A stretch of DNA of 64,000 nucleotides from NCBI RefSeq assembly GCF_023091865.1, contig NZ_JAHXDI010000001.1:558001-622000 (forward strand), written 5' to 3'. The notes under the pieces are model-generated. The model saw only the letters and a program-made list of their open reading frames with translations, was not told the DNA's origin and did not search any database. Made by a program: the position numbers and the translations under genes. Below, one piece after another: positions 49,019 through 56,247 of this stretch (positions are counted from its first letter, which is position 1; every line of letters starts with the position of its first letter). Source of the DNA: Chromohalobacter moromii. Its GTDB lineage: Bacteria > Pseudomonadota > Gammaproteobacteria > Pseudomonadales > Halomonadaceae.

Positions 49019-51409
49019 ATGCTGGTCTATAACGCCACCAAGCAGCAGTTTATCGATGATGTGCGTGCGAATGTAATAAGCGATGCCATCGAGAACGAGG
49101 TGGCGCGCAGACTGAACCGCAACTCGCCGCGTGGTGAGGTGACGTCGTGGGAAAACTCCCTTCGCTTCATGATGAGCGTTCTGCTCGATGAGGGAATTCC
49201 CGCGTCGGCCGGGGTGGCCATCGAGTACAACATTCCGCTGACCAATCGCCGCGTGGATTTCATCCTGACCGGCAAGAATCACCAGCGAGACGATGCCGCC
49301 GTCATCGTGGAACTGAAGCAGTGGCAGTCCGTCGAGGTGACCAAAAAGGATGCCATCGTGCGTACTCAGCTTGGTGGCGGTGTCCGCGAGACCAATCACC
49401 CGTCGTATCAGGCATGGTCCTATGGCGCGCTGATCGAGGACTACAACGAGACGGTACGCTCCGAATCGATCCGCCTGGTGCCCTGTGCCTACCTGCACAA
49501 CATGAAGCAGGCCGATGCCATCAATGATCCCTTCTACGAGCACCACACAAGCCGTGCGCCGGTCTTCATCTCGCAGGATGCCCTGAAGCTCTCGGAGTTT
49601 CTCAGCCAGCACATCAAGTACGGCGACAGCAACGACATTATGTATCGCATCGAACATGGTGTGATCAAGCCGAGCAAGAACCTGGCGGATGCTCTGGCAT
49701 CGATGATGCAGGGCAATGCCGAGTTCCTGATGATCGATGAGCAGAAACTGGTCTATGAAACCGCGCTTGATCTTGCTCATCGTGCGGAAAAAGGCGGCAA
49801 GCAGTGCCTGATCGTCAAGGGTGGTCCGGGCACCGGCAAGTCGGTGGTGGCCATCAATCTGCTGGTGGAGCTGACGAAGCGCGAGATGATGACGCAGTAC
49901 GTGTCGCGTAACTCGGCCCCACGGGAAGTCTTTAAGAAAAAGCTGACCGGTACGCGCAAGAAGACCCACATCGATAACCTGTTCAAGGGCTCGGGCAGCT
50001 ACGTTAACGCGGAGCCGGATACCTTCCATGCGCTGATCGTCGACGAGGCGCATCGGCTGAATGAAAAGTCCGGCATGTACCAGAACCTGGGCGAGAGCCA
50101 GATCAAGGAGGTGATCGCCGCCTCACGCTTCTCGATCTTCTTCATCGATGAAGCGCAGCGCGTGACGCTGAAAGATGTGGGGACGGTAGAGGAGATCCGG
50201 CGACGGGCGGCGGAGTCTGGAGCCGATGTCCACGAGCTAGAGCTGGCGTCGCAGTTTCGCTGCAACGGTTCGGACGGTTACCTGGCATGGCTCGATCACG
50301 CCCTTCAGATTCGCACCACGGCCAACACCGATCTGGATGACATCGACTACGACTTCCAGGTGTTCGATGACCCGAGCGCCATGCGCCGGGCGATTCTCGA
50401 TAAGAACCGCAAGGCCAACAAGGCACGCATGGTGGCGGGCTACTGTTGGCCCTGGGCGAGCAAGAAGGACAAGCACGCCATGGACATCGTGTTTCCCGAG
50501 TATGGCTTCGCGGCCCAGTGGAACCTCGATGACGACGGCATGCTTTGGGCCATCGCCGAGGATTCTGTCGTTCAGGTCGGCTGCATCCACACCTGCCAAG
50601 GACTCGAATTCGACTACGTCGGCGTCATCATCGGCGACGACTTCGTGATTCGTGACGGTCGCGTGGTGACGGACGCGGGGAAGCGGGCAGGGCAGGATCG
50701 TTCCGTGCATGGCTACAAGAAGATGCTCAAGGAGCAGCCCGAGCATGCCCGCGCCATTGCGGACCAGATCGTCAAGAACACTTATCGCACGCTGATGACG
50801 CGGGGCCAGAAGGGCTGTTACGTCTATGCCACGGATCCCGAGACTCGCGAGTACTTCGCAGCCTTTGCTCGCTCTCAAGCAGCGACAGAGCGACTGGACG
50901 CTTCCGAGGATGCCGAGATGCTGGATGGCTTGCATCTGCCCATCGTGACGCGTGACCAGGCAGCACCGTTCGAGCGCCATGTGCCCGTGTACGACTTGAG
51001 CTTCGCCGCTGGCGAGTTCAGCGAGATGCAGATCGCCGACGCCGAGCACTGGGTCGAACTGCCGGACTTCATGCGAGTAAGCCCCGACCTGTTCGTCAGC
51101 CGGGTAGTGGGGGAGTCGATGAATCGGCGCATCCCCAATGGCGCCTGGTGCCTGTTCCGTGCCAACCCTGGTGGCACACGGCAAGGCAAGGTCGTCGTGG
51201 TGCAGCATCGCGCCATCGAGGACCCCGACCACGGCGGCAGCTTCACGATCAAGCTGTATCAGAGCGAGAAGATCGAGGAGTACGGCGAGTACGTGAACCA
51301 GCGAATCGTGCTGAAGCCCCAGACCAACGCCTTCGGTTACAAGGACATCGTGCTCGAAGACGAGCTTGAGGATCTGAAGGTCATCGGCGAATTCCTCTCC
51401 GTGCTGTGA
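49019..51409 (+). CDS. Nuclease-helicase-S24 peptidase fusion (DUF2075 type)
   Basis: This 796-residue multidomain protein has three parts. Residues 1-130 form a PD-(D/E)XK-like nuclease (RRVDFIL with Asp80, VIVELKQW with Glu98 and Lys100). Residues 240-650 are a DUF2075/Schlafen-type SF1 helicase with Walker A GGPGTGKS at 268-275, Walker B VDEAH near 342, FIDEAQR, and the late motif CIHTCQGLEFDYVGVIIGDD. Residues 660-796 are an S24 (LexA/UmuD-like) peptidase with GESM (Ser700) and TIKLYQ (Lys745). I infer a DNA-handling or defence protein that can be self-cleaved on a signal. A MazG-like gene follows. Confidence 0.85.
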   Translation: MLVYNATKQQFIDDVRANVISDAIENEVARRLNRNSPRGEVTSWENSLRFMMSVLLDEGIPASAGVAIEYNIPLTNRRVDFILTGKNHQRDDAAVIVELKQWQSVEVTKKDAIVRTQLGGGVRETNHPSYQAWSYGALIEDYNETVRSESIRLVPCAYLHNMKQADAINDPFYEHHTSRAPVFISQDALKLSEFLSQHIKYGDSNDIMYRIEHGVIKPSKNLADALASMMQGNAEFLMIDEQKLVYETALDLAHRAEKGGKQCLIVKGGPGTGKSVVAINLLVELTKREMMTQYVSRNSAPREVFKKKLTGTRKKTHIDNLFKGSGSYVNAEPDTFHALIVDEAHRLNEKSGMYQNLGESQIKEVIAASRFSIFFIDEAQRVTLKDVGTVEEIRRRAAESGADVHELELASQFRCNGSDGYLAWLDHALQIRTTANTDLDDIDYDFQVFDDPSAMRRAILDKNRKANKARMVAGYCWPWASKKDKHAMDIVFPEYGFAAQWNLDDDGMLWAIAEDSVVQVGCIHTCQGLEFDYVGVIIGDDFVIRDGRVVTDAGKRAGQDRSVHGYKKMLKEQPEHARAIADQIVKNTYRTLMTRGQKGCYVYATDPETREYFAAFARSQAATERLDASEDAEMLDGLHLPIVTRDQAAPFERHVPVYDLSFAAGEFSEMQIADAEHWVELPDFMRVSPDLFVSRVVGESMNRRIPNGAWCLFRANPGGTRQGKVVVVQHRAIEDPDHGGSFTIKLYQSEKIEEYGEYVNQRIVLKPQTNAFGYKDIVLEDELEDLKVIGEFLSVL

Positions 51410-51516
51410 GCAAGCAGGCGGCCGGATAGCCGCCTATACCGATGTAGGCTAGATAGCGAGCGGCAGAGCAGGCATGCTCACCGCTATCCGATACCGCAGA
51501 ACCAGGTGAGCCCTAG

Positions 51517-51885
51517 ATGTCAGACCCATTCAAGCAGCTCCGTGATTCCATGGACCAGTTCGCCACCGAGCGCGACTGGGACCAGTTCCACTCGCCCAAG
51601 AACCTGGCCATGGCGCTGACGGTGGAGGCAGCCGAGCTGCAGGAGTGCTTCCAGTGGCTGACCGAGGCGCAGTCCAGGGAGCTGGATGAGCAGCAACTGG
51701 CCGCCGTGCGCGACGAAATTGCCGATGTGCAGCTCTATCTGATCCGGCTGGCGGGCAAGCTGGACGTGGATATCGAAGCGGCATGCCGGGCGAAGATGGA
51801 GAAGAATGCGGAGAAGTATCCCGCCGACCAGGTGAAGGGAAGTGCGAAAAAGTACACACATTACGTTGATGGTGAAGCGGATTGA
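51517..51885 (+). CDS. MazG-like nucleotide pyrophosphohydrolase
   Basis: This 122-residue all-alpha NTP pyrophosphohydrolase shows the acidic Mg-binding motifs EAAELQECFQWL and EIADVQLYLIRL of the MazG/dCTPase (RS21-C6-like) group. It hydrolyses nucleoside triphosphates to monophosphates. The ATG at 51517 follows AGGTGAG. It lies 107 bp after the nuclease-helicase-S24 gene on the same strand with no real terminator between, only a 7-bp hairpin at 51416-51435 without a T-run. The two may form a functional pair in which nucleotide depletion or clean-up joins DNA cleavage. Confidence 0.9.
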   Translation: MSDPFKQLRDSMDQFATERDWDQFHSPKNLAMALTVEAAELQECFQWLTEAQSRELDEQQLAAVRDEIADVQLYLIRLAGKLDVDIEAACRAKMEKNAEKYPADQVKGSAKKYTHYVDGEAD

Positions 51886-52209
51886 TGTGGGGCTGCCCCT
51901 GATGCTGTTGGCCGAAGTAATCGCTGTGGCCGATGAAAGATCGGGCAATTGAGGAAGTAGGACAGATCAGCCTGGAGATCGAGCAGGCACGGAAGACGCT
52001 CAAGCAGACAGGGACGGATACCGACTAGCCGGAAAGGTAGCGGCGAGGTGGTACCAGGGCGGAAGGCTTCAGGGATAGGAGGTCCCCTTGAGTAAAAGGG
52101 CTGTATTTGCCCAGGATTTAATAAAATAAAAAAGAGATAAATATCCGCGTAAATTTCTTCGTTTCATGAAAATGCGAAAGTAAATATTTTGAGAACTGCA
52201 GGGAATAGC
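51886..52209. other. Intergenic boundary of the AT-rich insert, with a 31-codon reading frame
   Basis: No firm gene is seen. A short frame at 51933-52028 (MKDRAIEEVGQISLEIEQAR onward, ending QTGTDTD) looks helical and coding-like but is isolated and may be a remnant. From about 52080 the composition turns sharply AT-rich, marking the left border of the AAA-TOPRIM/methyltransferase insert and probably containing its promoter. Confidence 0.4.
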
Positions 52210-53979
52210 ATGAGTAATTGTGAGCAAAAAATAAAGACGTTAGTGGATATTGTTTATAACTTTAAGCCAGGCTCGCAGCTTAAGAACTTTATAGGAAGCG
52301 CGCGATTCCCGAATTTCAAGGGCCTAGAGAAAGATTCAGAGATAAAGTTCGACTTTCCGTTTACTGCAGTCGTAGGAGCAAATGGATCGGGGAAAAGTTC
52401 TGTTTTACATGCTTTACATGGGATGCCTGAGGGCGAGAGTACTGCGGTTTACTGGTTCTCAACTGAATTAGACCCAATTGAAGCAAAGAGGAATAATCCG
52501 CCGCGATACATATATTCGCATTGGCACGAAGAATATAAGAATTATGTAGAGACCAGAAAGGCACGTGTCTATAGTACAGTCAGGAAGTATGAGTATTGGG
52601 AACCAACTAAGGCTACCAAAGGCGACGGTATGGCTAGTATGCCGTCTGGAAAATATTCAAGGAAAGATCAAGATAGATGGAATCCCGTTGTTCGGCAGGT
52701 TGTTAACCTGAACATGAGGAGCGTAGTTGGGGCTTTTGATAGGGCTTTTAGTTATGGGCTTCCCTTGTCAGATTTACGAAAAAAACATGCCGAGATGAAA
52801 GCCGGGGCGAAAAGAATTAAACGTGTTTTGCGAGAGGGGATTGAAAGCTGGCATGTCAGCGGAGGGCCGGAGAGAGTTTTTGAAAACAGAGTTTTAAGTA
52901 ATGAAGAAGTTAGCTGGATCTCTTGTATTCTAGGCAGGGAGTACAAATCCGCCTATTATCTAAGGCACTCCCTTTATTCTGGGCAAAAAAGTGAAGATGT
53001 TAGTGTCGTTTTTGATAGGGGGATAGAGTACTCAGAGGCTTTTGCAGGGAGTGGTGAGGTCTCAGTAGTTGAGATTGTAGTTAATGTTCTCTCAGCTGAT
53101 GATTACGCCCTCGTTCTTATTGATGAACCTGAGACATCTCTGCACCCAGGAGCTCAAAGAGAACTCCTGAGCTTTCTCCTCGAACAAATTAAAAGAAAAA
53201 AGCTACAGGTTGTAGTTTCAACTCATTCGATGGAGTTTTTATCAGGCTTGCCTGATAAGGCAATAAAAGTGGTGGAGGCGCAAGATAATGGAAAATCTAT
53301 CATATTAAACGAGTGCTCTCCCTATGTGGCCCTAAATAGGCTTGGCAAAAAAACCGGAAAGAAGGCCATTTATGTAGAGGATGTTTTGGCCAAAGTCTTG
53401 GTTGAGCATGCGTTAAGTGCAATGGACCATGGTGAAGTAGAGGCATGCGAGGTTGTAGTGGCGCCAGGTGGTGCGAATGAGATTTTGTGTTATCAGGTGC
53501 CTGGGCATATTATATCAGGGAGCGACTGTTACGTTCTTTTAGATGGTGATCAGAGGAACGTTCATGAGTTCACAAAACCAAGCTCTATACCTGACTCCCA
53601 AAGTCATCAATTCGGTGGTATAATACTTGCGGAAGTGGGTGTAAACCCCAAATTCTCACTAAGTGGCGGTAATAACCCCAAGGGAACTCAGAAAGAAAAA
53701 ATAGAAAAGCAGAAAGAGTATCTTGAATGGGTTGGAAAGCGTTTAAGGTATCTCCCCTGTCAATATCCGGAAGAATTTTTTTTGGAAGAGATTTTTGGTA
53801 TCGCTCCAGGTAGCTTTCAAGATTCTGATGCGGCTAAGCTGGGGCTGAGGAAACAGCTTCCAAGCAGCTTAGGTCCCGGCGAAGAAGCCGTGGCGCTCAA
53901 AGTTTATTTGGATAATATTCCTGAAAGTAATGCCACTTTTGTTGAGATAAGACGGCAAATTAGAGAATGGCTTGGATGA
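52210..53979 (+). CDS. AAA-TOPRIM ATPase, OLD-family-like nuclease
   Basis: This 589-residue protein has an ABC-type ATPase with Walker A GANGSGKS at 56-63, SGE signature-like at 281, Walker B LVLIDEPETSLHP near 302 and the switch His339 in STHSMEF. It is followed by a TOPRIM-like domain with Glu390 (AIYVED) and the metal-binding DGD at 445-447 (YVLLDGDQ). OLD-family proteins with this layout are ATP-regulated nucleases in anti-phage systems. The ATG at 52210 follows AGGGA. The gene is AT-rich with many AGA and ATA codons, unlike its neighbours. It ends 18 bp before a cytosine methyltransferase gene. Confidence 0.83.
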   Translation: MSNCEQKIKTLVDIVYNFKPGSQLKNFIGSARFPNFKGLEKDSEIKFDFPFTAVVGANGSGKSSVLHALHGMPEGESTAVYWFSTELDPIEAKRNNPPRYIYSHWHEEYKNYVETRKARVYSTVRKYEYWEPTKATKGDGMASMPSGKYSRKDQDRWNPVVRQVVNLNMRSVVGAFDRAFSYGLPLSDLRKKHAEMKAGAKRIKRVLREGIESWHVSGGPERVFENRVLSNEEVSWISCILGREYKSAYYLRHSLYSGQKSEDVSVVFDRGIEYSEAFAGSGEVSVVEIVVNVLSADDYALVLIDEPETSLHPGAQRELLSFLLEQIKRKKLQVVVSTHSMEFLSGLPDKAIKVVEAQDNGKSIILNECSPYVALNRLGKKTGKKAIYVEDVLAKVLVEHALSAMDHGEVEACEVVVAPGGANEILCYQVPGHIISGSDCYVLLDGDQRNVHEFTKPSSIPDSQSHQFGGIILAEVGVNPKFSLSGGNNPKGTQKEKIEKQKEYLEWVGKRLRYLPCQYPEEFFLEEIFGIAPGSFQDSDAAKLGLRKQLPSSLGPGEEAVALKVYLDNIPESNATFVEIRRQIREWLG

Positions 53980-53997
53980 GGTCTTTTAAGTTTAGCT

Positions 53998-55029
53998 ATG
54001 GTTAAAGATAAACAGTTAGTTGCTATAGACCTTTTTAGCGGCTGCGGTGGCTTAAGCGAAGGCCTGAAACATTCAGGCTTTTCTGTTCTTGCCGCTATAG
54101 AACTAGACTTGAAGGCGGCTGAAACATACAGACTGAATCATCCAGAAGTCTCATTGCTGAATGAAGATATAAAAAGAATTGATCCTGTTGAGCTTATGGA
54201 AAAGCTTAATGTGAAGCCGGGTGAAGTTGATCTTATTGCTGGCTGCCCTCCATGCCAAGGCTTCTCTAGGCTAAGGACTAAGAACAAGTCAGGTTCTGTA
54301 AGAGATGAACGCAATGACTTGATTGAAAGTTTTTTTGTTTTTGTTAACGCAATCAAGCCAAAGTGCGTAATGCTTGAAAACGTTCCTTCTATTGCGGACG
54401 ATGATAGGTTTTTAAAAGTGTATGAGGAGCTCAATAAAGCTGGGTATCAATGTGTTTACGATGTCTTGGATGCCTCTGATTACAATGTTCCACAGCGCAG
54501 AAAAAGGTTGATATTGCTTGGCTCTAGAGTTGGCAAGGTGACTCTGGCCGAAAAGAGCTTGAAGAAAAATACAGTCAGGCATGCTATAGAAGGCTTAGGA
54601 GCTGCCGGTGATAGCGGCGACGAGATTCATGACATGCCTGAGAAAAGAAGCAAGGAAGTCAAGAACATCATATCGATGATACCTAAAGACGGTGGGAGTA
54701 GGTTTGAGCTCCCAGAGAAGTATCATTTGGCATGTTACAAAAGGAGCGGAGGCTTTAGGGATGTTTATGGGAGAATGTCATGGGATAAAGTTTCACCAAC
54801 CATTACAAGTGGGTGCCACAATCCCTCAAAAGGTAGGTTTTTGCACCCAGAAGATAATCGTGCAATAACTCTTAGGGAGGCTGCTATTTTACAGGGATTT
54901 CCTGAGCAATATAGGTTTATTTCAAGCCATGGTAAAGAAAGTATTGCTTTAATGGTGGGGAATGCTTTGCCACCCCCCTTCATAAGAGCCCATGCTGACT
55001 CATTAAAAAAATTGCTGATGGACGGCTAG
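53998..55029 (+). CDS. DNA cytosine-5 methyltransferase
   Basis: This 343-residue enzyme has all the main C5-methyltransferase motifs in order: I DLFSGCGG (11-18), IV GCPPCQGFS with catalytic Cys86, VI ENVPS (127), VIII PQRRKRL (165-171), IX with REAAILQGFPEQYRF, and X VGNALPPPF. The target-recognition region between VIII and IX is about 90 residues, so a short target is likely. It protects or marks DNA by methylating cytosine at C5. It shares the AT-rich composition and orientation of the AAA-TOPRIM gene. No classic restriction enzyme is adjacent; the decayed insertion element begins 13 bp after its stop. Confidence 0.95.
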   Translation: MVKDKQLVAIDLFSGCGGLSEGLKHSGFSVLAAIELDLKAAETYRLNHPEVSLLNEDIKRIDPVELMEKLNVKPGEVDLIAGCPPCQGFSRLRTKNKSGSVRDERNDLIESFFVFVNAIKPKCVMLENVPSIADDDRFLKVYEELNKAGYQCVYDVLDASDYNVPQRRKRLILLGSRVGKVTLAEKSLKKNTVRHAIEGLGAAGDSGDEIHDMPEKRSKEVKNIISMIPKDGGSRFELPEKYHLACYKRSGGFRDVYGRMSWDKVSPTITSGCHNPSKGRFLHPEDNRAITLREAAILQGFPEQYRFISSHGKESIALMVGNALPPPFIRAHADSLKKLLMDG

Positions 55030-55041
55030 TCGAATTTTGAA

Positions 55042-56247
55042 TGTACAGTGATGGTGTTCGCCTGACACATGCCCCCGTGGGCTCCCTATAGTTAAGCAGT
55101 GTTTTCTGCCGTTTTCCTGGGCTCCTTCTTCGTCCCCTTGGGGAGTCCTTTCTTGAAGACGGCATAGGGCGTCGTCCCCTTCATGTTGCGGCCCTGATGC
55201 GGCCGTTTCGTGTTGTAGATGACCAGATAATCGTTCAGGTCCTGCTGCATCTCTTCCAGGGCCTCGTACCACTTGGTGCGCCCCTGGATGCGGAAGTGCT
55301 CGTCCAGCAGGGTGCGGTGCAGCCGCTCGACGAAGCCGTTGCTCTGCGGTCGCCGAACCTTGGTGGTGCGGTGCTCGATCTCTTCGAGTTGAAGGAACAG
55401 CTCATACGGATGCTGATCCTTCCGGCCGCAGAACTCTCGGCCGTTGTGGCTGAGTACCGTGCTGACTTTGGCGTGGGCCTCGAAGAAAGGCAGTACGTCG
55501 TTGTTGAGCACATGTACTGCCGTGGTGGGCAGTTTGCTGGTGTAGAGGCGCCCCCAGGCGTAGCGGCTGAAGCAGTCGATGACGGACTGCAGATAGACCT
55601 TGCCGACCCCCTTGAGCGTTCCGACGAAGAAGGTGCCACTCGCCGGTGTGGTGGACTTCGATATGCTGTTCACGGAACTCAGGGCTAAAGCGTTCGAGCT
55701 GGCGTACCTGGTCTTCAGTGAGCTCGATTTTCTACTCACGCGTGGCGCGCTCGAGTCGCAGCAGGCGCTCATGACGGGTCACAAATCATGGCGTCCCTAG
55801 ACGCCTCTGACGCCCGTAGAGCTGACCTGGATGCCACGTAGCGCCAGTTCTTGAGCGACGCGAACCGGACCGTGGGTGGGGAAGGCCAGTCTGTGCTCGA
55901 GAATGGCCGTTTTGATCTCTTCGCTGACGCAATTGCGGTGTGGTCCCCGCGGCCCGGGAAGCTTGTCGACGAGCCCATCGGAGCCGAAGGTTTGATAGTT
56001 GCGCCGTATCTCATAGAACTGCTGTCGCGAGTAGTCCATCAGCTTGCAGTCCATGCTTACATTCTGCAGACCCTTGGCCAGCTTTAGGAGGCTGAGCTGG
56101 CGCTGTGCTACTTTTTATTCGCTGGCCTTAGTCGTTTCCTTATAGTTTTACGGCCGATCTTCAGACATTTTCCCTACAGTCCACGGGGAGCGCTATGGCC
56201 AACTCGCTTTCAGTGGTCAACTGTCAGGTAAATACCGTCACATCTCA
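55042..56247 (-). mobile_element. Decayed IS481-type insertion sequence
   Basis: This 1,206-bp element is bounded by 26-bp imperfect inverted repeats at 55042-55067 (TGTACAGTGATGG... ending CCTGACA) and 56222-56247; 18 of 26 positions pair. The inside encodes a broken transposase on the reverse strand. No clear target-site duplication is visible, which fits an old insertion. It ends the AT-rich insert on the right. Confidence 0.8.
55092..56111 (-). pseudogene. IS481-type transposase, inactivated
   Basis: The N-terminal helix-turn-helix part (QLSLLKLAKGLQNVS, then DYSRQQFYEIRRNYQTFGSD) runs to a stop at about 55797. A second in-frame stop and a third at the TRE-stop-KIE position follow. The frame then shifts near 55660 before the rve catalytic core continues (YLQSVIDCFSRYAWGRLYTS). 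The core keeps the first Asp and the Glu (GFVERLHRTL), but the second catalytic Asp is His in VLSHNGREFCG. The element cannot make active transposase. Confidence 0.9.

Follow-up and report, generated by a model that had tools for sequence, protein, structure and literature searches.

Gene content of the locus

The window analysed here, a stretch of 64,000 nucleotides from Chromohalobacter moromii, contains two genes on the same strand separated by 107 bp, which encode a three-domain fusion protein and a MazG-like pyrophosphatase:

49019..51409, plus strand: gene for a nuclease–SLFN-g3 helicase–S24 fusion protein of 796 aa (ORF; Pfam; model pLDDT 84.5, pTM 0.73)
49019..49708, plus strand: N-terminal PD-(D/E)XK-like nuclease region, residues 1-230, assigned from its motif (D80, E98, K100 and Q131 invariant)
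49799..50836, plus strand: SLFN-g3 (DUF2075) SF1 helicase, residues 261-606 (PF09848, E 2.4e-105; Walker A 268-275, DEAH 342-345)
50966..51406, plus strand: LexA/CI/UmuD-type S24 domain, residues 650-796 (PF00717; PDB matches)
51008..51013, plus strand: candidate self-cleavage site Ala664-Gly665, aligned with VAAGE of LexA (loop 663-672, pLDDT <50)
51116..51118, plus strand: predicted catalytic Ser700 (66/66)
51251..51253, plus strand: predicted catalytic Lys745 (65/66)
51517..51885, plus strand: gene for a MazG-like dNTP pyrophosphatase of the DCTPP1/RS21-C6 type, 122 aa (PDB 2a3q/6sqw, E 3e-24; catalytic residues kept)

The first-pass annotation had described this pairing, and the layout is real: both ORFs and the gap between them are present, the Pfam domains were recovered, and every residue that it had named is in place (Asp80, Glu98, Lys100, GGPGTGKS at 268-275, DEAH at 342-345, Ser700 and Lys745). 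Two points are added to it here: Ala664|Gly665 as the candidate site of cleavage, and the assignment of the MazG protein to the dCTP pyrophosphatase type. A literature search did not find a paper describing a nuclease-helicase-S24 protein together with MazG.

Nuclease and helicase

The helicase is covered as a whole domain by the Schlafen group 3 profile (PF09848, 353 bits against a cut-off of 24, profile positions 1-354 of 354), and its structural matches in Foldseek are RecD, RecD2, Dda, Dna2 and SLFN14. Pfam gave no match for the N-terminal nuclease region and none to a Schlafen RNase, the N-terminus carrying a D-ELK motif instead. D80, E98, K100, Q131, K274, D342 and E343 are invariant in all 66 aligned full-length sequences, which places these residues beyond chance, and it is the D80/E98/K100/Q131 pattern, taken with the helicase context, that points to a nuclease.

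A LexA-like domain with a conserved candidate cleavage site

Peptidase_S24 was matched by Pfam on residues 656-791 (E 6.5e-6, exceeding the cut-off). The S24 fold proposed earlier was confirmed by an AlphaFold2 model of residues 648-796 (pLDDT 81.5), which folds like LexA/lambda CI: all of its 26 PDB matches at E<=0.001 are lambda repressor or LexA. Among the 66 sequences the contiguous scissile pair is Ala-Gly in 51 and Cys-Gly in 12, and three (L046, L069 and L073) have neither. Since the serine, the lysine and a contiguous Ala/Cys-Gly pair are kept together in 63/66, the domain probably cleaves itself, and the earlier idea of self-cleavage, which had not included the scissile pair, is strengthened by its conservation. 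The predicted cut would leave an Ala-Ala C-terminus in 51 of the 66 proteins and a Cys end in 12; such an Ala-Ala degron is not independent evidence, because the S24 domain itself needs the scissile residues.

C-terminal S24 domains of the same subfamily are also found on GIY-YIG–helicase, HsdR, type III Res-like and HNH proteins. Ser, Lys and the contiguous pair are kept in 7/8 aligned proteins of these other architectures, plus the partial L110; carriers with AAG, Ser and Lys are the HsdR proteins L107, L108 and L129, the HNH protein L106 and the GIY-YIG–helicase proteins L111, L130 and L131. L128 retains Ser and Lys and has lost Ala-Gly; L109, which is a broken copy, no longer has Ser. The domain thus has the appearance, at the sequence level, of a portable autoprotease fitted to DNA-cutting enzymes. 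The idea that the S24 module travels on plasmids or phages was rejected: the search returned two viral contigs and, among plasmids, the Halomonas PA16-9 record only; no phage record carrying the S24 domain of L108 was found.

The MazG partner, its linkage and spread

The downstream protein has a Pfam MazG-like match (E 4.3e-14), and its similarity to DCTPP1/RS21-C6 spans residues 7-117. In an alignment of 77 rows (75 distinct) the EXXE...EXXD catalytic set is retained, with E37/E40 in 74/77 (3 gaps) and E67/D70 in 77/77. By analogy, the protein resembles a dCTP pyrophosphatase and its substrate is probably dCTP or a 5-modified dCTP. The relatives from which this substrate is deduced are mammalian.

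Among related loci whose sequence extends far enough in both directions, MazG adjoins the nuclease-helicase in 57 of 67, and the linkage proposed in the first-pass annotation extends across phyla and to one of two archaeal records. For the other ten loci nine genomes were searched; in one MazG lies 694 bp away, and in eight it is encoded elsewhere. The group-matched chance of this cis-or-trans pattern is about 4e-7 in a post hoc test on 8 genomes, one of which (L162) has its MazG 23 bp from a contig end. No nuclease-helicase was present in the fetched flanks (<=1.5 kb per side) of the eight trans MazG loci, the L162 flank being cut by the contig end, so that, L162 excepted, a second copy of the system in these flanks does not explain the trans MazG. 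Adjacency in 57/67 loci and the trans-MazG results rule out a mere chance neighbour. In L013, which is 92% identical to the window, about 6 kb downstream and just 197 bp upstream (locus flanks only) are without MazG. A reading by eye of MazG-less loci revealed no other nucleotide cleaner that consistently replaces it; judged by their motifs, an ORF on the opposite strand in L078 is Nudix-like and one in L069 is ASCH-like.

Relatives that lack S24 end shortly past the helicase (alignment to the window breaks off at residues 613-619, in ORFs of ~620-660 aa) and have the same MazG in 9/11 cases, which makes the S24 domain an added control layer. A reading in which S24 is ancestral and constant was rejected, the tree requiring 10 changes (bootstrap range 9-11; a minimum of 4 forced). 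Distant DUF2075 relatives on plasmids are mostly without MazG (annotated in 1/8); additional candidates there are an unannotated MazG in L145, reading in two frames, and a weak one in L140. Relatives number at least 583; the family is patchily spread (9/398 genomes) and its tree conflicts with taxonomy.

Genomic neighbourhood and transcriptional control

Some neighbouring genes are of defence type, as the defence context supposed for the locus would predict: 83 PADLOC models were matched by 105 neighbours, as against 7 by 107 control ORFs. Taken together, the sequence data suggest that the two genes form a conserved, mobile, defence-type module, probably with an anti-virus role.

Control of the operon through a LexA box was considered and rejected. 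A search of the ~220 bp upstream for CTGT-N8-ACAG, one mismatch being allowed, found none in the window and no clear excess among S24-containing loci (4/61, 3.8 expected); among S24-less loci there were 2/13 (0.7 expected). The lack of a clear excess fits control at the post-translational level.

Comparison with known systems

Five PADLOC models matched the fusion protein, Hachiman not being among them. Nhi and AbiO share the nuclease and a related helicase, but their matches cover part of the helicase alone: for Nhi residues 239-416 of 796 (profile 184-331 of 470, E 1.4e-9), short of the full-length profile, and for AbiO residues 233-416 (E 1.5e-10). Neither is known to have an S24 domain or a MazG partner. 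The candidate model PDC-S41, of 657 positions, matches residues 3-317, i.e., the nuclease and the start of the helicase (E 3.3e-16), with its best stretch covering model positions 5-293.

LexA, UmuD, lambda CI and IrvR are repressors or a polymerase subunit; they have in common with the fusion protein the S24 fold, the Ser-Lys dyad and the Ala/Cys-Gly scissile pair, but in the fusion the carrier of the domain is a nuclease-helicase. DCTPP1/RS21-C6 shares sequence and catalytic acidic residues with our MazG, which differs in being the operon partner of a predicted nuclease. HsdR, which is subject to restriction alleviation by ClpXP, is likewise a DNA motor-nuclease that needs disarming on self DNA, and some HsdR-like proteins bear the same S24 domain as the fusion; EcoKI is not known to have an S24 domain. 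The degron of EcoKI for ClpXP is reported to be unknown (PMC4231737), and cleavage of the S24 protein IrvR exposes a C-degron for ClpXP (PMC7101444). Hachiman and AbpAB are nuclease-helicases that react to DNA damage or to the replication of phage (PMC12278908; PMC10732053). Hachiman (HamAB) and AbpAB place nuclease and helicase on two subunits and use other helicase types, whereas here a single fused protein replaces separate genes such as those for the HamA nuclease and the HamB helicase.

Proposed function and alternatives

We tentatively favour, with somewhat less than even confidence, a nuclease that serves defence and carries a LexA-like off-switch, i.e., a built-in restriction alleviation, accompanied by a self-protecting MazG. 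The nuclease-helicase would attack foreign DNA or replication intermediates. On a RecA filament or a similar damage signal the S24 autoprotease would cut its own chain after Ala664 and be shed, leaving a C-terminus that ends in Ala-Ala like that of cleaved LexA; this fragment could be degraded by ClpXP, so that damage to the host's own DNA would disarm the nuclease. MazG would act constantly on the dNTP pool, probably on dCTP or 5-modified dCTP, and keep host DNA free of something that the nuclease would attack. A damage-linked brake is plausible because damage to host DNA likewise sets off Hachiman and AbpAB (PMC12278908; PMC10732053).

Some observations run against this explanation: the Cys end in 12/66 proteins, the pair-less L046, L069 and L073, the losses in L128 and L109, and the MazG-less L013. 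In EcoKI, alleviation works through ClpXP with no known S24 domain. Plasmid-induced alleviation is independent of SOS (PMC11109961), and IrvR cleaves without RecA (PMC7101444).

The main rival, which we regard as rather unlikely, reverses the direction: S24 would restrain the nuclease-helicase until phage-induced RecA filaments cause cleavage, and the active nuclease would kill phage or cell. UmuD is indeed activated by cleavage, and residues 1-664 would make up what looks like a complete enzyme, given that S24-less relatives end soon after the helicase. The HsdR-S24 fusions fit this reading poorly, as they should act immediately on unmodified DNA; an HsdR that has to meet incoming DNA without delay would be better served by an off-switch than by SOS activation. 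Moreover, the existence of S24-less forms with MazG means that restraint is not obligatory, and a nuclease freed by SOS would be expected to add to host damage. In a more specific form of the off-switch reading, which is speculative and improbable as a whole, nucleotide hygiene and a damage fuse would be combined: the nuclease-helicase would destroy DNA with noncanonical (e.g., 5-modified) dCTP that MazG excludes from the host, and S24, a portable fuse added to unrelated restriction nucleases, would disarm it on RecA-marked host damage.

A third reading makes MazG the effector, depleting dNTPs on infection while the nuclease cuts phage DNA. The operon linkage and the retained catalytic residues agree with it, and MazG is predicted as a defence domain in one study (PMC13092281). 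Each of the eight searched genomes without a nearby MazG nevertheless encodes one at another place, whose fetched flanks contain no nuclease-helicase, and a stand-alone copy would hardly substitute for an infection-activated effector; we consider this reading improbable. Of the three refuting conditions set by the first-pass annotation, the two that were checked, on the S24 fold and on gene linkage, did not refute it. It had left open whether MazG depletes or cleans nucleotides; cleaning fits better than depletion, as the searched genomes lacking a neighbouring MazG have a stand-alone one, and self-protection through the nucleotide pool is the more likely role.

It is quite improbable that the fusion is instead a DNA repair or plasmid-control enzyme under SOS control; the helicase fold is RecD/Dna2-like, and S24 and nucleotide cleaning are both part of genome maintenance, but the patchy spread, the conflict between tree and taxonomy and the defence-type neighbours argue otherwise. 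Very unlikely is an S24 domain that no longer cleaves and serves only for dimerisation or binding, as the missing pair in L046, L069, L073 and L128 and the lost Ser of L109 might suggest, given the catalytic and scissile residues kept in nearly all fusion and other-architecture proteins.

If the proposed off-switch is correct, the damage sensor of LexA type would serve not only in repressors and UmuD but also as a fuse built onto restriction and defence nucleases, and single point mutants could be used to test how a cell's own damaged DNA is spared from such nucleases. For house-cleaning enzymes, the cis-or-trans pattern of the dCTP-pyrophosphatase-type partner would, if true, mean a part as antidotes in immunity.

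The module and its relatives

The module in the window consists of two genes:

49019-51409, + strand: ORF of 796 aa, the nuclease-helicase-S24 protein, with Pfam domains SLFN-g3_helicase (residues 261-606, E 2.4e-105) and Peptidase_S24 (residues 656-791, E 6.5e-6, a score better than its cut-off)
51517-51885, + strand: ORF of 122 aa, MazG-like by Pfam (E 4.3e-14), 107 bp from the 796-aa ORF

The residues by which the first-pass annotation had recognized a nuclease (Asp80, Glu98, Lys100), a helicase (Walker A 268-275, DEAH 342-345) and an S24 peptidase (Ser700, Lys745) in the larger protein were all found in place. Its full-length AlphaFold2 model (55 rows, pLDDT 84.5, pTM 0.73) matched RecD, RecD2, Dda, Dna2 and SLFN14, with TM-scores that are low over the whole chain.

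When one genome per species was scanned, at least 591 pattern matches were obtained, of which at least 583 are relatives, and the best 80 were kept; since these were chosen by score against the full-length query, the set over-represents S24 forms (65 extend into the S24 domain and 15 stop short of it). These best 80 of at least 583 stem from Pseudomonadota, Bacteroidota, Verrucomicrobiota, Thermodesulfobacteriota, Acidobacteriota, Nitrospirota and others, and the rows closest to the window on the helicase tree are Halomonas and kin. Among 398 evenly sampled Pseudomonadota genomes, nine carried a relative at E <= 1e-20, and the S24 profile (E <= 1e-12, at most nine candidates scored per genome) matched in five, all among these nine. 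Six of seven plasmid or phage records (L002-L008) hold S24-less relatives, that of L004 in pieces, and the carriers include two archaea and one Microcystis phage. The copy of Halomonas sp. PA16-9 (L002) has split reading frames in helicase/S24 and MazG.

Association with MazG

A same-strand MazG ORF lies within 250 bp in 66 of the 80 loci (best 80 of at least 583 relatives; the count includes L031, a weak match of 20.9 bits), 57 times upstream and nine times downstream, the latter placement being that of a Halomonas/Marinobacterium clade. Where there is room on both sides, MazG is adjacent in 57 of 67 loci (48/56 with S24, 9/11 without it). In the evenly drawn sample it stands next to the gene in all eight genomes checked, one of them (L130) with MazG split over frames; the locus of the ninth, G598, runs to a contig edge and was left out. 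Among the plasmid and phage records it adjoins the gene in five of seven, and none was found beside it in L003 (Hymenobacter) and L005 (Methanosphaera). The Hymenobacter plasmid carries a tandem pair of DUF2075 genes (L003 5001-8987), with no MazG adjacent and restriction genes near.

In the window's genome (3.47 Mb, 6 contigs) the MazG of the module is the sole one of its type at E <= 0.01. In the PDB it comes closest to RS21-C6 and dCTP pyrophosphatase 1 (E 3e-24), and among 77 aligned rows over 60 bits (75 distinct) the catalytic residues E37 and E40 are kept in 74, with three gaps, and E67 and D70 in all. According to the available parts of the respective reports, DCTPP1 binds both dCTP and its modified forms with high affinity (PMC7162842), and it and RS21-C6 count as hydrolases of 5-methyl-dCTP (PMC10742078). 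The window's MazG resembles both by sequence. A nucleotide pyrophosphohydrolase also lies directly downstream of a distant Ligilactobacillus DUF2075 gene (L141 3131-3439).

An adjacent MazG is missing in 14 of the 80 loci. Nine of their genomes (those of L025, L026, L049, L052, L053, L058, L063, L069 and L084) were searched, and all nine contain a MazG, that of L084 694 bp upstream of the nuclease gene. The remaining eight MazG loci share no 40-mer with their own nuclease locus, and no nuclease-helicase was found in their fetched flanks, which span about 1.5 kb on each side in six and less in L165; L162 (genome of L069) lies 23 bp from a contig end, and a second module may be present there. 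Several adjoin metabolic genes as read by eye, presumably a catalase-peroxidase in L164, a cysteine desulfurase in L166 and a dihydrolipoamide acyltransferase in L168. Such MazG genes occur in 35 of 200 Pseudomonadota genomes, 16 of 96 Verrucomicrobiota (two of the eight query genomes included), 76 of 120 genomes in the order of L053 and, with the query genome counted in both cases, 4/99 in the phylum of L069 and 6/99 in that of L052. Multiplying group-matched rates with query genomes removed gives 3.5e-7 for eight out of eight, or about 1e-5 without L069, a post hoc estimate that assumes independence and includes metagenome-assembled genomes. The other five loci comprise L013, L041 and L078, cut on the upstream side by a contig end, L045, whose first 33 residues are missing, and L028, a split frame with a MazG fragment (26 bits) at its start. 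L013 has no downstream MazG though its close kin do, and to that extent counts against linkage. The presence of a MazG in all the genomes searched suggests that the nuclease-helicase depends on a MazG-type enzyme in its host, and that a copy encoded on its own suffices.

The S24 domain

Among 66 full-length sequences (the window, 63 of the best-80 loci, L089 and L090), Ser700 is kept in all and Lys745 in 65. In 51 of them the scissile residues form a contiguous Ala-Gly and in 12 a contiguous Cys-Gly; of the other three, L069 and L073 carry an insertion that separates the two residues, and L046 is decayed. Serine, lysine and contiguous pair occur jointly in 63. In a profile alignment AAG pairs with VAAGE of LexA, and GESM with its GMSM. 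LexA sequences match the S24 profile weakly (best E 0.004), and no other ORF of the window's genome reaches E 0.01 (all 17 candidates scored), which sets the subfamily apart. Residues 648-796 modelled with AlphaFold2 (14 rows, pLDDT 81.5) had as their top PDB matches a hyper-cleavable lambda repressor fragment and LexA, with UmuD ranking lower; in the full-length model pLDDT falls below 50 in three segments, among them the loop 663-672 that holds the scissile pair. Judging by the conserved residues, S24 is very probably an active autoprotease.

The S24 subfamily is a portable module, found on other nuclease types (Pfam domains checked for L111, L107, L106, L128 and L129):

L111, L130, L131: GIY-YIG-SLFN-g3 proteins with C-terminal S24, GIY-YIG in place of PD-(D/E)XK, MazG adjacent
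L107 221-3784, L108 3761-7465, L129 1824-5465: HsdR-like type I restriction subunits with C-terminal S24, AAG/Ser/Lys kept
L128 2271-5453: type III Res-like protein on a viral contig, C-terminal S24 with Ser/Lys and no Ala-Gly pair
L106 6283-7959: HNH endonuclease with C-terminal S24

Scissile pair, serine and lysine are all kept in seven of these eight, L128 being the exception; they are also kept in the partial L110, ended by a contig edge, and a broken copy, L109, has lost both serine and scissile pair. The gene beside the L128 protein is, by its motif, presumably Fic-like. No MazG was found in the loci fetched for HsdR-like, Res-like and HNH proteins, whereas it is present beside SLFN-g3 forms; since the GIY-YIG forms have it too, MazG accompanies the helicase rather than a nuclease type. 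On the helicase tree (90 rows) the S24 label requires 10 changes (bootstraps 9-11; supported branches force at least 4).

Genomic surroundings

The module and the two genes that follow it sit between a GntR regulator and a transposase remnant:

52207-53979: AAA ATPase, AbiEii/OLD-like (PADLOC HEC-04 model, E 3.9e-39)
53998-55029: C5 cytosine methyltransferase, 18 bp after the AAA ATPase
55092-56054, - strand: transposase remnant with integrase core domain, two ORFs, island edge; we take it to be IS481-like

The stretch 52207-55029 is of low GC (43%), and its ATPase and methyltransferase are possibly a second defence pair.

Of 129 chosen neighbours (the closest ORFs with a length of 180 aa or more, chosen without five near-copies of the Halomonas locus), the 105 at S24+ loci were scanned, leaving aside 24 beside S24-less loci. 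At E <= 1e-20 they matched 83 PADLOC models, versus 7 matched by a control of 107 ORFs, which were taken from 16 stretches in genomes of the window's phylum and are not phylum-matched to the loci; these counts are of models rather than proteins (at most three proteins per model), and 19 of the 25 listed among the 83 belong to one candidate family, PDC-S05. The commonest neighbour Pfam families include ResIII, Fic, RhuM, HipA, DUF3427 and AbiEi (each in at most 4 of 105 proteins); those of the control are mostly metabolic and include two AAA_21. These counts indicate an enrichment of defence-type genes nearby; many neighbours are not defence genes.

Direction of the proposed switch

S24 self-cleavage might disarm the nuclease-helicase and so spare damaged self DNA. 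Such disarming is argued for by the fusion of S24 to HsdR as well, by the necessity of protecting the cell's own damaged DNA, and by the coexistence of S24-less forms with the same MazG, which makes S24 an addition. In 51 of 66 sequences, the chain produced by the predicted cut would also end in Ala-Ala; cleaved LexA is degraded by ClpXP via an Ala-Ala-type end, and ssrA ends in LAA. Cleavage of IrvR, another S24 protein, creates an end that acts as a ClpXP degron, though the fragment would otherwise function (available part of PMC7101444). We hold the whole reading, disarming included, tentatively, at somewhat less than an even chance. That cleavage instead activates the nuclease-helicase appears somewhat less likely, the points in its favour being that S24-less relatives stop near residue 620, so that a 1-664 product could be complete, and that UmuD is activated by cleavage.

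In the portions available of the studies concerned, alleviation of EcoKI proceeds via ClpXP with the degron unidentified (PMC4231737), plasmid-induced alleviation does not need SOS (PMC11109961), and Hachiman (PMC12278908) and AbpAB (PMC10732053), both nuclease-helicase defences, respond to DNA damage, the latter being activated by mitomycin C apparently without RecA.

Relation to known defence systems

Several nucleotide domains of the MazG sort were reportedly predicted in defence by a 2015 study. In the accessible text on DefensePredictor, a MazG appears among defence domains that are predicted and unvalidated (PMC13092281), and no S24, LexA or MazG was found in passages of a BREX survey (PMC12839542). 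The layout of nuclease-helicase-S24 plus MazG was not found in the titles and abstract openings of open-licence literature; the DefensePredictor figure and tables may show it. As far as these searches show, we regard the module as a new variation on nuclease-helicase defence.
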